Positions 4,987 to 10,548 of a stretch of 24,357 nt of DNA are shown here, one piece after another. Numbering within the stretch: position 1 is the first letter of the stretch; each line of letters opens with the position of its first letter. The position numbers and the translations under genes were made by a program. The stretch covers positions 1 through 24,357 of the IMG/VR virus record IMGVR_UViG_3300027759_000410; one strand, given 5' to 3'. Under the pieces are notes generated by a model. The model saw only the letters and a program-made list of their open reading frames with translations. It did no database searches and was not told the DNA's origin. The DNA comes from a virus.

Positions 4987-5842
4987 AAACATTCACGAGC
5001 TTCATCTTGATGGCGCGACTGTTCAACTTGCAATGATGTCCGACCTTCACTGGGATAATCCGAAATGCGATTGGGATCTATTGAAACGTGATTTTGATTA
5101 CTGCCTTGAGAACGATATTAAGGTCATGGTGAATGGTGACTTCTTTTGTTTGATGCAAGGGAAAGGTGATAAACGAGGAAATAAGTCAGATATCCGACCG
5201 GAACACAACAACGCAAAGTATTTGGATTCAATCGTTGAAACCGCGGTTGAATGGTTTAGTCCATATGCTCACATCCTTACTGTTATAGGATACGGTAATC
5301 ATGAAACTGCAATCATCAAGCATCAAGAAACCGACATCCTTCAACGATTCGTTGACTTGCTTAATTACAAGAATGGTAGCAACGTAATGACCGGAGGTTA
5401 TGGTGGATGGATTATCATTCATCAACAATATACAACGAGTTCATGGACCACAACCAAATTAAAATACTTCCACGGATCAGGCGGTGGAGGAATCGTGACC
5501 AAAGGAGCAATCAACTTGACCAGGGCATTGGAAACATACGAGGACTTCGATATCTTCTCAATGGGCCACATCCATGAGAATGCTTGTCGAAATGATGTGA
5601 GAGATACAGTAACTCATTCACCGAAGCATGGATATGTCAACCATCACAAAAACATTCACCTCATGCTTACCGGAACTTACAAAGAGGAGTACGGTGATGG
5701 CTCCAAAGGATGGCATGTTGAGCGAGGAGCTCCCATCAAACCAACCGGAGGAAGAATACTCAAGATAAATGCCAAAGAAATAAAGAAGGAAGGTATAAGA
5801 AAAATGTACAAAAGTATCGACTCAATCAAATTTCCTTTGTAA
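4967..5842 (+). CDS. Calcineurin-like metallophosphoesterase
   Basis: This 291-residue protein has the full metal-binding set of the family: SDLHWD (Asp26, His28), NGDFF (Asp58), GNHE (Asn111-His112), FHGSG (His169) and GHIHE (His201, His203). It should hydrolyse phosphate mono- or diesters with two metal ions; a DNA-related or cyclic-nucleotide substrate is possible but unproven. The start overlaps the spanin-like gene by 20 bases, the first motif begins at residue 25, and no better start is visible. It is the last gene before a terminator. No signal peptide is seen, so it should be cytoplasmic. Confidence 0.88.
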   Translation: MLKKHSKNIHELHLDGATVQLAMMSDLHWDNPKCDWDLLKRDFDYCLENDIKVMVNGDFFCLMQGKGDKRGNKSDIRPEHNNAKYLDSIVETAVEWFSPYAHILTVIGYGNHETAIIKHQETDILQRFVDLLNYKNGSNVMTGGYGGWIIIHQQYTTSSWTTTKLKYFHGSGGGGIVTKGAINLTRALETYEDFDIFSMGHIHENACRNDVRDTVTHSPKHGYVNHHKNIHLMLTGTYKEEYGDGSKGWHVERGAPIKPTGGRILKINAKEIKKEGIRKMYKSIDSIKFPL

Positions 5843-5866
5843 ATTAGCGAATCATTAGCGTGTGTT

Positions 5867-5897
5867 AAGGGGGATGTCGAGAGGCTCCCCTTTTTTT
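5867..5897 (+). terminator. Rho-independent terminator ending the lysis operon
   Basis: AAGGGGG (5867-5873) pairs with TCCCCTT (5886-5892), including one G-T pair, around a 12-nt loop ATGTCGAGAGGC, followed by a run of T. It lies 25 bases after the phosphoesterase stop and closes the rightward late transcript. The loop shares the TGTCG..AGGC block with the leader at 8075-8092. Confidence 0.82.
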
Positions 5898-5915
5898 ATG
5901 GGTATAACCTGAGTT

Positions 5916-5977
5916 TTGTCAACTTTTTTCAGGCTATAACTTGACAAACATTTGACACTATTTAGATTTATTGTCAA
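5916..5977. repeat. Four TTGACA/TTGTCAA half-sites
   Basis: TTGTCAA occurs at 5916-5922 and 5971-5977, and the opposite orientation TTGACA(A) at 5941-5947 and 5952-5957. They form two facing pairs around an AT-rich centre, as an operator might. TTGACA also resembles a sigma70 -35 box, but Bacteroidetes promoters do not use that box. Confidence 0.45.
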
Positions 5978-5983
5978 TTGTAT

Positions 5984-6023
5984 ATACGCATTGATACGAA
6001 TCGATACGCAAAATATACGAATT
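5984..6023. repeat. Four ATACG iterons with 10-11 bp spacing
   Basis: ATACG begins at 5984, 5994, 6004 and 6015, as ATACGCATTG, ATACGAATCG, ATACGCAAAAT and ATACGAATTT. One-turn spacing places all copies on the same helix face, a pattern typical of replication-initiator or repressor arrays. Confidence 0.65.
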
Positions 6024-6034
6024 TCACCTTCATT

Positions 6035-6048
6035 AAGTAAATTTACTT
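6035..6048. repeat. 14-bp perfect palindrome
   Basis: AAGTAAATTTACTT is identical on both strands, consistent with a dimer-binding site. It lies about 73 bases upstream of the -33 box of the early promoter. Confidence 0.5.
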
Positions 6049-6120
6049 TACATGAATACCCCATCGGGTATAGCATTCACAATTAATTTTGTTCAAAAGT
6101 GAAAAAAAAGTTAAAAAAGT

Positions 6121-6150
6121 TTTGCATTTGTGAAACCTTTCATATCTTTG
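6121..6150 (+). promoter_or_regulatory. Bacteroidetes-type promoter for the early small-gene operon
   Basis: TTTG (6121-6124) and TATCTTTG (6143-6150) are separated by 18 bases, a very good match to the Bacteroidetes primary sigma factor consensus TTTG-N~19-TAnnTTTG. An A-rich tract lies just upstream. Transcription would start near 6156, leaving about a 20-base A-rich leader before the ATG at 6177. Confidence 0.82.
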
Positions 6151-6176
6151 TGGAGTAAACAATTAAAAAACACGCA

Positions 6177-6344
6177 ATGAAAAAACAAGAAATGATTGAC
6201 GCAATTATCCAGGAACATGATGTTCTATGGAATGAGTACATGGAGATGCTTGAGGCATTTGGAATCAATGATGAGGGAACTCAGAGAGCAGGAACACGAG
6301 CTGCAACACTTGGACAATTAATCGACAAACTTGAAATCAGATGA
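6177..6344 (+). CDS. Small hypothetical protein, first gene of early operon
   Basis: This 55-residue ORF starts MKKQEMIDAIIQEHD and ends DKLEIR; it is strongly helical, acidic and lacks any membrane segment. It is the first ORF after the promoter at 6121-6150, its ATG follows an A-rich leader, and its stop overlaps the next start (ATGA at 6341). I do not recognise a family. Position as the first early product suggests a host-interaction or regulatory role, which is inference. Confidence 0.72.
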   Translation: MKKQEMIDAIIQEHDVLWNEYMEMLEAFGINDEGTQRAGTRAATLGQLIDKLEIR

Positions 6345-7435: not shown

Positions 7436-7833
7436 CAAAACAAGATAAAATAAAAGCAATCAAACACATCATTCAACGCGATCAATTGGATGTAACAAGT
7501 CGACACCAGGTATTGACAATGAGGAGAAGATATCTAATGGCAGAACTGAGGGGATTGAATCTTCCATTTCATGCGATTGGTGAGTATTTCAATCGAGGTC
7601 ATGCAACAGTGATGCACAACATCAAGCTGCACAATTGGTCCATTGAAAGTGGTGATTTATATTACATCACCGTTATCCAAGATGATATTGACGAGCTTCA
7701 GGGGAATGCTCATGTGAAAAAAATGAGATTTCTTCGTGATGAGATTCTTAAATGTAAGTCATACAATCAGCTCAAAGCAATCAAGAGAAGAGTGTTGAGG
7801 AACGAATATGAGGAATTGTTATCAGTTGAGTAA
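7432..7833 (+). CDS. DnaA domain IV-like DNA-binding protein
   Basis: The 133-residue product contains RRRYLMAELRGLNLPFHAIGEYFNRGHATVMHNI... across residues 31-66, which follows the DnaA C-terminal pattern: a helix ending in R, LxLPxIG, then F..R.HATV.H, the DnaA-box-binding signature. There is no ATPase domain. It is likely to bind a DnaA-box-like site and either help the host DnaA or primase-helicase open the origin, or repress. Its neighbour downstream is the iteron-bearing gap at 7834-8157, which is the natural candidate target. The stop is at 7831-7833, just before the first iteron. Confidence 0.72.
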   Translation: MTKQDKIKAIKHIIQRDQLDVTSRHQVLTMRRRYLMAELRGLNLPFHAIGEYFNRGHATVMHNIKLHNWSIESGDLYYITVIQDDIDELQGNAHVKKMRFLRDEILKCKSYNQLKAIKRRVLRNEYEELLSVE

Positions 7834-8035
7834 TAAAATAGGTACACAAGTACACATTTTCGGTCATATACTTATACTTATTTAATTATTTTGAGAATCG
7901 GAAAAAATAATATTTTCAAAAAATACCAAAAAAACGTGAAAATGTGTACCAAAATCGCCGAAACACTAGTAAACATTGAATTTTAATAGGTACACATTTA
8001 GGTACACATTGAGGTACTAATTGAAAATAAAGTGT
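7834..8035 (+). other. Candidate phage replication origin (iterons flanking an AT-rich tract)
   Basis: This gap has no gene. It contains repeats of GGTACACATT on both sides of a very AT-rich stretch (about 7866-7937, including ACTTATACTTAT), directly after a DnaA domain IV-like gene and before the primase-helicase. Iterons plus a probable unwinding element plus adjacent initiator genes is the classical phage and plasmid origin layout. Function is inferred; an operator array is the alternative. Confidence 0.6.
7841..8022. repeat. GGTACACATT iteron family
   Basis: Direct copies are at 7841-7848 (GGTACACA), 7850-7861 (GTACACATTTTC), 7989-7998 and 8001-8010 (GGTACACATT), and a degenerate one at 8013-8022 (GGTACTAATT). 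The last three have exact 12-bp spacing. An inverted copy at 7938-7950 (GAAAATGTGTACC) is the exact complement of the 7850 copy over 12 bases. Confidence 0.85.
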
Positions 8036-8037
8036 AT

Positions 8038-8070
8038 TTTGTTGAGTAATGGAATAAATTACTATCTTTG
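8038..8070 (+). promoter_or_regulatory. Bacteroidetes-type promoter for the replication operon
   Basis: TTTG (8038-8041) and TATCTTTG (8063-8070) are 21 bases apart. The -7 box is identical to that of the early promoter at 6143-6150, so the same host sigma factor probably reads both. Transcription would start about 8075-8077, at the edge of the G-rich leader arm. Confidence 0.75.
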
Positions 8071-8072
8071 TT

Positions 8073-8144
8073 GAGGGGTTGTCGGAGGCATCCACTTAAA
8101 AGGTTTTCACTGTTCCTTTCCCCCTCTTTTTTTTTAACAGTGAA
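8073..8144 (+). promoter_or_regulatory. Structured leader with interleaved hairpins (attenuator or pseudoknot)
   Basis: Two arms pair in an interleaved order: GAGGGG (8073-8078) with CCCCTC (8121-8126), and TTCACTGTT (8106-8114) with AACAGTGAA (8136-8144). The first pairing is followed at once by nine T residues, like a terminator. The second pairing encloses a 21-base loop made only of pyrimidines. The pairings can coexist only as a pseudoknot, otherwise they exclude each other. The structure ends 13 bases before the primase-helicase ATG, so control of that operon is plausible. Confidence 0.55.
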
Positions 8145-8157
8145 CTAAAACAGTATT

Positions 8158-10548
8158 ATGATCGTTTCAATTTTTAAGAAGGTAACGGATACCACAAATC
8201 CATTCAACAAATCAGCTCTCTATTGTCTTGAAAGAATTCGAGATGGTAAGTCAAAGGAATTGGTTGAGCAAATCAGAGCTTGTGCCACAAAGGATGAGCA
8301 AAAACAATACAAGAATCAGCTTCCTGGAGTTTGCTTCAATGGAACTTTCAAGAGTCGCTCAGTGAAAGGTATCGAACAAAGGTCCGGATTAATGATATTG
8401 GACTTTGACAACATGAGTCACACTGCTGAGGCAATTCAATTCAAGGATGCATTGATGTTCAACAACTATGTTTTCAGTGCATGGATATCACCAAGCGGAA
8501 AAGGAGTGAAGGCATTGGTCAAGATTCCAACTGAGGGAGATTTCAAAGGATATTTCGATGCCTTGAAAACTTACTTTGATTCTGATTATTGGGATAGTTC
8601 AGGAAGTAACCTTGACCGATTCTGTTTTGAGTCATATGATCCAGATATTTACATAAATCAAGATTCATTGCTTTGGAGTGCTATCGAAGAGCCGGAGATT
8701 GAGGAAATTGGCTCAATGGATGTGATGATTCCAATCAAATCGGACAACCGTATCATTGAAAACTTGATGAAATGGTGGGAACGGAAGTATGGAATGGTAC
8801 CAGGTGAGAAGAATAATAACCTCTTTAAACTTGCAGCTGCATTCAATGACTTCGGTATTCAGAAAACTGAATGCGAGAATGTGATGCTTCGCTTTGATGA
8901 AGGAGGGAAGGAGAATGAGATTCGAAAGATAATCAAATCAGCATATTCAAAGACATCTCAATTCGGGACCAGGTACTTCGAAGATAATACATCTAGGGCG
9001 AAGATTGAAAAGCACATTCGAGCAGGTAAAAAGACAAACGATATCATCAAGATACTTCCTGAGTTTACTCAAGATGAAGTTGAGAAGTGCGTTGATGCCA
9101 TTAAGGAAACCGGAAACATTGAGGATTTTTGGACTTATAACAATCAGAATCGAATTCAACTCAGCATCCATCAATATAAGTTTTGGCTCCAACAAAACAA
9201 CTTTTTCAAATACTTTCCTGCTGATTCCAATACTTACTCATTCATTAAGAAGGAGCAGAATCTGATTGAGGAAACCAATGAGAAGAGAATCAAGGATTTC
9301 ACACTCAGCTCTCTATTATCAAGGGAGGAGATTGGATTCCAACCGTATGATTTGATGGCAGGTGCGACAAAATACTTCACATCTGAATTCCTTTCGATGT
9401 TAGATAGTGCTCAAGTTGAGATGATGGAGGATACTGCGGATAAATGTTATCTATATTACCGGAATTGTGCGGTGGAAATCACCAAGCAAGGGATATTTAA
9501 ACACGAGTACATTGACCTGGATGGATATGTATGGAAAAGGCAGATAATTGACCGAGAATATATTTCTAGTGATCACCATAAAAGTGAGTTTAGAACATTT
9601 CTATGGTTGGTAAGTGGCAAAGATTCAGCAAAGTACAACTCATTTAAGTCAGTTATTGGATACTTGATGCATTCATACAAGACCTCAGCGAGTAATAAAG
9701 CAATAATATTCAATGATGAAACCATATCAGAGAATCCGAATGGAGGAAGTGGAAAAGGATTGTTTTGGAATGCATTGGCTAAGTTAAAAAAGGTAGCATC
9801 AATTGATGGAAAGACATTTGAATTCACCAAAGGATTTCCTTATCAAACAGTGTCAACCGATACTCAGCTCTTGGTATTCGATGATGTGAAAAAGAACTTC
9901 AACTTTGAGAATCTCTTCTCATTGATTACCGAGGGAATCACATTGGAGTACAAAGGGCAGGATGCCATCAAGATACCAGTGAATAAATCTCCCAAAATTA
10001 TCATCACTACCAACTACACAATTGGTGGAGTGGGTGGCTCATTCGAGAGAAGGAAGTTTGAAGTGGAGATGAGTAACTATTTTGGTCACACACGATCACC
10101 ATTGGATGAGTTTGGTCATATGTTGTTTGATGATTGGAATGATGAGGAATGGGTAATCTTTGACAACTTCATGATTCAATGCTGCCAATACTACCTGAAG
10201 AATGGATTGGTATCTCATGAGTTCACCAACCTGGATGTGCGTAAATTTATCAAAGAAACGTGTTTTGAGTTTTACGATTGGTCCAATGATGGGAATCTTC
10301 CATTGAATGTACGGTTGTACAAAGACGAGCTTCATGAGGCATTCACTAATGAATACACCGATTACGCCAAACTGAGCAAAAAGAAATTCTCTCAATGGCT
10401 GAGTATTTTTGGACATTATCATGGATACAAGATTGATGAGAATAAAACAAACAACCGGAGATGGATTGAATTCGGAAGGACCGATAAAACACCAAGTGAT
10501 CCGGATGATATTTGGGATGAGTTAAACGATAAAGCAAAGAAGATATGA
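8158..10548 (+). CDS. Primase-helicase (VirE-N/BT4734-like primase domain plus D5-like SF3 helicase)
   Basis: This 796-residue protein is the main replication enzyme here. The N-terminal third matches the BT4734/VirE N-terminal family, related to archaeo-eukaryotic primases: LDFDN (Asp82, Asp84), SPSGKGVKAL (from residue 111) and CFESYDPDIYI (from about 156). The C-terminal half is a D5-like superfamily 3 helicase: Walker A NGGSGKG (Lys533), Walker B LLVFDD (Asp575-Asp576), sensor TTNYT (Asn619) and likely arginine finger SFERR (Arg631-632). It should unwind the origin and prime synthesis. It follows the iteron gap and structured leader, and overlaps the nuclease gene by four bases. Confidence 0.88.
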   Translation: MIVSIFKKVTDTTNPFNKSALYCLERIRDGKSKELVEQIRACATKDEQKQYKNQLPGVCFNGTFKSRSVKGIEQRSGLMILDFDNMSHTAEAIQFKDALMFNNYVFSAWISPSGKGVKALVKIPTEGDFKGYFDALKTYFDSDYWDSSGSNLDRFCFESYDPDIYINQDSLLWSAIEEPEIEEIGSMDVMIPIKSDNRIIENLMKWWERKYGMVPGEKNNNLFKLAAAFNDFGIQKTECENVMLRFDEGGKENEIRKIIKSAYSKTSQFGTRYFEDNTSRAKIEKHIRAGKKTNDIIKILPEFTQDEVEKCVDAIKETGNIEDFWTYNNQNRIQLSIHQYKFWLQQNNFFKYFPADSNTYSFIKKEQNLIEETNEKRIKDFTLSSLLSREEIGFQPYDLMAGATKYFTSEFLSMLDSAQVEMMEDTADKCYLYYRNCAVEITKQGIFKHEYIDLDGYVWKRQIIDREYISSDHHKSEFRTFLWLVSGKDSAKYNSFKSVIGYLMHSYKTSASNKAIIFNDETISENPNGGSGKGLFWNALAKLKKVASIDGKTFEFTKGFPYQTVSTDTQLLVFDDVKKNFNFENLFSLITEGITLEYKGQDAIKIPVNKSPKIIITTNYTIGGVGGSFERRKFEVEMSNYFGHTRSPLDEFGHMLFDDWNDEEWVIFDNFMIQCCQYYLKNGLVSHEFTNLDVRKFIKETCFEFYDWSNDGNLPLNVRLYKDELHEAFTNEYTDYAKLSKKKFSQWLSIFGHYHGYKIDENKTNNRRWIEFGRTDKTPSDPDDIWDELNDKAKKI

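Follow-up and report, generated by a model that had tools for sequence, protein, structure and literature searches.

The alpha protein of phage P4 combines priming, unwinding and recognition of its own site in one protein. Alpha and its cognate ori site are mentioned in work that describes the PICI origin as two sets of iterons flanking an A+T-rich region, located immediately 3' of the rep gene (PMC6092414). In SaPI5 Rep and the pri-rep-ori modules of SaPIs and PICIs, primase and D5-type helicase are fused, and a DNA-binding domain forms the C-terminus. Their initiators are allelic (PMC6092414, PMC7581432), and the iterons are specific to the initiator allele. SaPI Rep and Cch2 were shown to bind origin repeats through the C-terminal domain (PMC7581432). 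In the case of SCCmec Cch2, the isolated C-terminal domain binds the putative origin in a manner dependent on direct repeats (PMC7581432); its primase is a separate protein pair and its origin lies downstream.

The window analysed here, a stretch of 24,357 nucleotides, carries genes for a portal and both terminase subunits, small and large, of its own, and is by its gene content a tailed phage. The genes at issue are all on one strand. Relatives of its primase are found in contigs of Flavobacterium, Cytophagales, Pedobacter and other Bacteroidota, and the type of promoter at the locus fits Bacteroidota. Elsewhere in the window, a 335-bp stretch (5842-6177) in which no + strand gene is called holds a terminator-like GGGGGATGTCGAGAGGCTCCCC with a T-run, and a promoter-like TATCTTTG ahead of the next genes.

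The locus is a gap of 324 bp (7834-8157) between the gene of a DnaA domain IV-like protein and that of a primase-helicase (Table 1). A first-pass annotation of the DNA had described these flanking genes as encoding a DnaA C-terminal-like protein without an ATPase and a primase-helicase, in agreement with Pfam. It had also reported five direct or near copies and one exact inverted copy of a repeat, three of them at 12-bp spacing, and all of these were located in the gap as GGTACACATT-like units flanking the 80-bp stretch of lowest stability in the window. The left pair is also found in type-A relatives (defined below), and an inverted iteron lies at the matching position in relatives with other iteron words. 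At up to two mismatches, GGTACACATT has 29 matches in the 24-kb window versus 23.9 expected from window-wide shuffles, and seven in the 324-bp gap versus approximately 0.3 expected. Five GTACAC/GTGTAC words in the gap were matched by none of 20,000 Markov simulations of it. The iterons do flank an A+T-rich tract as annotated, but the description of this tract as almost pure A+T was too strong, its content being 79-82.5%; it ranks top in A+T among 24,277 80-bp windows and is also the least stable. Cumulative GC skew, suggested as a check, shows no turn at 8 kb, yet is uninformative here because the genes run on one strand.

Table 1. Features of the candidate origin, the flanking genes and the exchanged cassette (window coordinates).
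Feature	Position	Strand	Remarks
DnaA domain IV-like gene, 133 aa	7432-7833	+	outside the swapped cassette
Exchanged cassette: iterons, promoter, leader, primase-helicase	7815-10502	+	flanks 93-98% identical, inside replaced
Left iteron pair, GGTACACAAG and AGTACACATT	7841-7858	+	overlapping, starts 8 bp apart
Left iteron 1	7841-7850	+	2 mismatches to GGTACACATT
Left iteron 2	7849-7858	+	1 mismatch to GGTACACATT
A+T-rich stretch, candidate unwinding element	7863-7942 (about 7863-7945)	.	A+T about 0.82; weakest nearest-neighbour stability
Exact inverted iteron, AATGTGTACC on the + strand	7941-7950	-	0 mismatches
Seventh, weak GGTACACATT-like copy	7968-7977		2 mismatches
Right iteron array	7989-8022	+	three units, starts 7989, 8001 and 8013, exact 12-bp spacing
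Right array, first unit	7989-7998	+	0 mismatches
Right array, second unit	8001-8010	+	0 mismatches
Right array, third unit	8013-8022	+	2 mismatches
Bacteroidota-type promoter	8038-8070	+	-33 TTTG 8038-8041; -7 TATCTTTG 8063-8070
Leader RNA	8073-8157	+	P1 GAGGGG/CCCCUC; hairpin AAAGG/CCUUU
Primase-helicase gene, 796 aa, proposed iteron reader and initiator	8158-10548	+	Pfam, AF2 model, linkage to iteron type
Winged helix, proposed origin-binding domain	codons 703-773, 10264-10476	+	secondary structure, pLDDT ~90
46-bp block common to type-A and type-B cassettes, right exchange boundary	10503-10548	+	97.8-100% A-B identity

The primase-helicase contains a BT4734-like N-terminal domain and PriCT_1 (Pfam BT4734-like_N and PriCT_1), followed by an SF3/D5-type helicase and a predicted C-terminal winged helix. 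A primase domain fused to an SF3/D5-type helicase, as in P4-alpha/SaPI5-Rep-like initiators, is thereby present. The best structural match of its AF2 model (mean pLDDT 81) is the SaPI5 primase-helicase (7OM0, Z 16.1), over model residues 319-769 with the winged helix covered, and the next matches are poxvirus D5/E5; the helicase part reaches Z 15-16 against SaPI5 Rep and vaccinia D5. In the structural alignment, approximately 14% of residues are identical to SaPI5 Rep, and the primase part is BT4734-like. In phage records, one near full-length relative was found (MW202828, 43% identical).

The locus shares with the SaPI/PICI modules the fused primase and D5-type helicase and the two iteron sets around an A+T-rich region, and it matches their allele-specific iterons as co-inheritance, not as binding. 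The winged helix, predicted with high confidence, is the proposed counterpart of their C-terminal DNA-binding domain. Unlike in those modules, the array lies 5' of the gene, beside its promoter, and is carried by a phage with its own portal and terminase instead of a phage satellite. With SCCmec Cch2, it has the D5-type helicase, here a proposed initiator, in common. To phage P4 alpha with its cognate ori/crr it is likened by description: the proposed one-protein scheme is the same, whereas P4 is a satellite of Enterobacterales and the window a tailed phage of Bacteroidota.

The best reading of the locus is a P4-alpha/SaPI-Rep-like self-loading initiator of tailed phages of Bacteroidota, whose cognate iteron origin lies directly upstream of the initiator's own promoter. 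We put the probability at about 0.77 that this gap serves as the origin for a self-contained initiator cassette, with the phage primase-helicase as the protein that recognises the iterons, melts the tract, loads there and primes synthesis. For DNA binding, melting, the start of replication and autoregulation, we infer the following course. The primase-helicase would bind the iterons, probably through its C-terminal winged helix, and would assemble on the two iteron groups flanking the A+T-rich tract. It would then open the tract, load itself as an SF3/D5-type helicase and prime synthesis. Binding at the right array, near the -33 element, would probably also repress transcription of the initiator gene, because the array ends approximately 15 bp ahead of that element. 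Iterons and primase-helicase are exchanged together between related phages, so that the pair stays cognate.

The assignment of iteron reading to the winged helix was addressed by comparing close primases with different iterons (GTAC versus GGGC classes) against a same-iteron control. Twenty-one of the 50 class-disjoint columns fall within residues 681-800, and winged-helix substitutions were modestly enriched over the control (odds ratio approximately 2, p 0.06-0.08). That specificity residues concentrate cleanly in the winged helix was rejected, as the same-iteron control shows that this region varies fast anyway. The winged helix is favoured as the iteron reader mainly by homology, the substitution enrichment being suggestive.

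Because the origin here is upstream, at the promoter, and not downstream as in SaPI/PICI/Cch2, the iterons may be only an operator, by which the primase-helicase or a regulator controls the primase promoter while replication starts elsewhere. The right array is directly upstream of a Bacteroidota promoter, and a search for an iteron-independent protein site common to all origins yielded mainly this promoter, whose CTATATTTGC is the most shared such motif (20 of 25 origins versus 13 in shuffles). However, a number of units arranged in two groups on either side of the least stable 80 bp, together with a conserved inverted unit, exceed the needs of a simple operator, the window shows no further iteron cluster, and comparable arrays act as origins in the closest homologues (PMC7581432, PMC6092414). 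An operator-only role is accordingly regarded as unlikely, and the site that the first-pass annotation placed between an initiator gene and a helicase gene stays a good origin candidate on the basis of its architecture and of the layout kept in relatives.

Which protein reads the iterons can be approached from their distribution. Among relatives of the DnaA-like gene, the gap is either of type A, carrying GGTACACATT, or of type B, carrying CGTCAC/GTGACG. The primase that follows is A (796 aa) or B (800 aa), the two being approximately 36% identical. DnaA-like pairs at least 95% identical were found to have different iterons in 15 of 66 cases, with proteins 96-98.5% identical standing beside wholly different iterons, and DnaA-like proteins as little as 19% identical can share one iteron type. 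For primase pairs at least 90% identical, the corresponding count is 0 of 463. Over 27 loci, the fewest iteron-type changes are 10 on the DnaA-like tree versus one on the primase tree, and A iterons never occur with a B primase in the set compared; the iteron word alone gives limited resolution, because the GTACAC core also occurs beside primases only 47% identical. The left iteron begins 8 bp past the DnaA-like gene, and 135 bp separate the array from the primase start: the iterons track the farther gene, the primase, and not the nearer one.

TGTG is the core read by DnaA, and the type-A unit contains it. The DnaA-like gene adjoins the origin in many or most relatives, though not all, whatever the iteron, and its product keeps the domain IV fold and the DnaA signature GHATVMH, so that its recognition of the iterons as a compact initiator, the proposal of the first-pass annotation, was tempting. 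That this protein decides which repeat is used is contradicted by the pairs and trees above and by breakpoints that part its gene from the iterons. In addition, two distant origins (L112 and L113) keep the layout with GCAACAC iterons, and no DnaA-like gene was found within the 4 kb and 2 kb upstream, respectively. Loss of the iterons in close relatives, named beforehand as evidence against the proposal, is seen in close relatives of the DnaA-like gene. Recognition by this protein is thus highly improbable. A further argument against it at type-B origins, from TGTG, was dropped, since CACA there is TGTG on the other strand.

The DnaA-like protein itself matches PF08299 weakly (E 6.5e-7, slightly below the Pfam cut-off), and Pfam gave no AAA+ hit in its 133 residues. 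Its all-helical AF2 model (pLDDT 87) has its best PDB match in the DNA-binding domain of M. tuberculosis DnaA (3PVP, TM 0.70 by target, Foldseek E 0.16), and a domain IV DNA-binding fold is supported by this model. Relatives are encoded by 42 viral contigs; none was found in phage records at E 0.01. The proteins are nearly unchanged between type-A and type-B loci, with a consistent difference only in the last residues. The fold and signature are common to DnaA domain IV, whereas the AAA+ ATPase domain of DnaA initiators is missing and the protein is not the determinant of the iteron. DnaA-box origins carry TTATNCACA boxes, in contrast to the window, where no exact TTATNCACA was found on either strand. 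The protein may have a role in the origin neighbourhood other than iteron choice.

The boundaries of exchange bear on the same question. In a blastn comparison of the window with locus L003, near-identity stops at 7814 and returns at 10503, and L039 versus L041 gives the same breakpoint pattern. The left breakpoint (7814/7815) falls 19 bases short of the DnaA-like gene's end, between that gene and the iterons, and the right breakpoint (10502/10503) falls 46 bases short of the end of the primase gene. The 46-bp block that follows is near-identical in A and B cassettes despite the low identity of the two primases, and may serve as an exchange site; together with an Erf-like annealing protein encoded by the same phage, it suggests that the swap proceeds by homologous exchange. 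A pairs (L011, L020, L054) and B pairs (L004, L019, L022 and others) are both found with leader type 2, and recombination between iterons and primase has therefore occurred with the pairing unbroken. In some cassettes the leader is followed by an additional gene, which looks NUMOD4-HNH-like by eye; as only some have it, the primase-helicase is the sole protein common to all cassettes between the breakpoints. Linkage of neighbours is a general confounder, but that proximity alone produced the iteron-primase linkage, the true reader being a host factor or an unlinked phage gene, is hardly credible when only the farther of the two genes is linked, when the leader was exchanged between iterons and primase without mismatching the pair, and when the flanks on both sides are common to A and B phages. 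Most likely, judging from these alignments, related Bacteroidota phages swap origin and initiator as one cassette and keep the pair cognate. A reading of the iterons as LexA boxes was also discarded: no pointer to it was found in PMC8565304, and a host regulator would fit the cassette swap poorly.

The origin layout extends to distant relatives, in the order left iterons, A+T tract, inverted iteron, right iterons, promoter, leader and gene. Iteron words of the wider family were read by eye from upstream sequences. For A-like primases, the words are GGTACACATT-like at 86-100% identity to A, GGGGCACATT or GGGGCAGATT at 80-82%, AGGGCACATT at 73% and AGTACACATT at 47-49%. For B-like primases, they are CGTCAC at 75-100% identity to B, CTTGTCAT at approximately 66%, GTTGTCAC at approximately 62% and GCAACAC at approximately 40%. 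At least seven iteron words paired with cognate primase-helicases in uncultured Bacteroidota phages amount to a natural swap experiment, by which the specificity code of D5-type initiators becomes directly testable and the assignment of a DnaA-like reader is corrected; the cassettes are also candidate minimal replicons for Flavobacterium and related hosts. Another primase family, with a MITKDYLKKLAGLGYSIIPC start, was observed at five loci (L244, L260, L262, L297 and L301) with GTTTACAGT-type iterons and leader 1, which suggests the same origin layout with another initiator family.

The promoter resembles the Bacteroidota consensus TTTG/TANNTTTG with T at -12 and G at -5 (PMC6847099), and transcription is predicted to start at approximately 8075, at the beginning of the GAGGGG strand. 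Between promoter and primase there is a conserved leader, apparently pseudoknotted to judge from its pairing pattern. Its hairpin loop CACUGUU pairs with AACAGUG 3' of a U-run at 8127-8135, where termination may occur, and a second AACAGU lies ahead of the start codon. Loop and 3' strand covary in 15 distinct loops (mean pairing 8.4 bp versus 4.0 in controls), and a piece of the 3' strand of at least 5 nt recurs near the start codon in 12 of the 15. Pair counts on the MAFFT alignment of the leader, which left the loop strands out of register, were not used. Plain folding of the leader was no more stable than shuffles (z 0.36), because nested folding cannot show a pseudoknot, and an Rfam search of it gave no relevant match. 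The core GTTGTCGGAGGCATCCAC is present in 91 viral stretches; it almost always lies approximately 80 nt before a start codon, in most cases that of a primase, and the primases belong to several families.

From this pattern, an alternative-pairing switch, or a terminated small RNA targeting its own start region, is plausible. A more specific and tentative proposal, which we consider possible but somewhat doubtful, is that this is an undescribed pseudoknotted leader whose loop pairs either with the strand behind the U-run or with the start-codon duplicate, which together with iteron autoregulation would control the dose of initiator, and which would move as a separate module between unrelated phage primase families. 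The proposed role is likened to the dose control by plasmid countertranscripts and the P4 immunity RNA. A leader with covarying P1, hairpin, loop-to-3' pairing, U-run and duplicate strand was also seen at L063, L064, L066, L242, L313 and other loci. A second leader type was observed upstream of the primase or of the NUMOD4-HNH-like gene at L004, L011, L041, L089 and L102. It has an H-type pseudoknot pattern (such as GGCAG, AACCUC, CUGCC, GGGGUU) with a U-run at its end, its stem sequences differ between loci, and a third copy of the first strand lies near the start codon.
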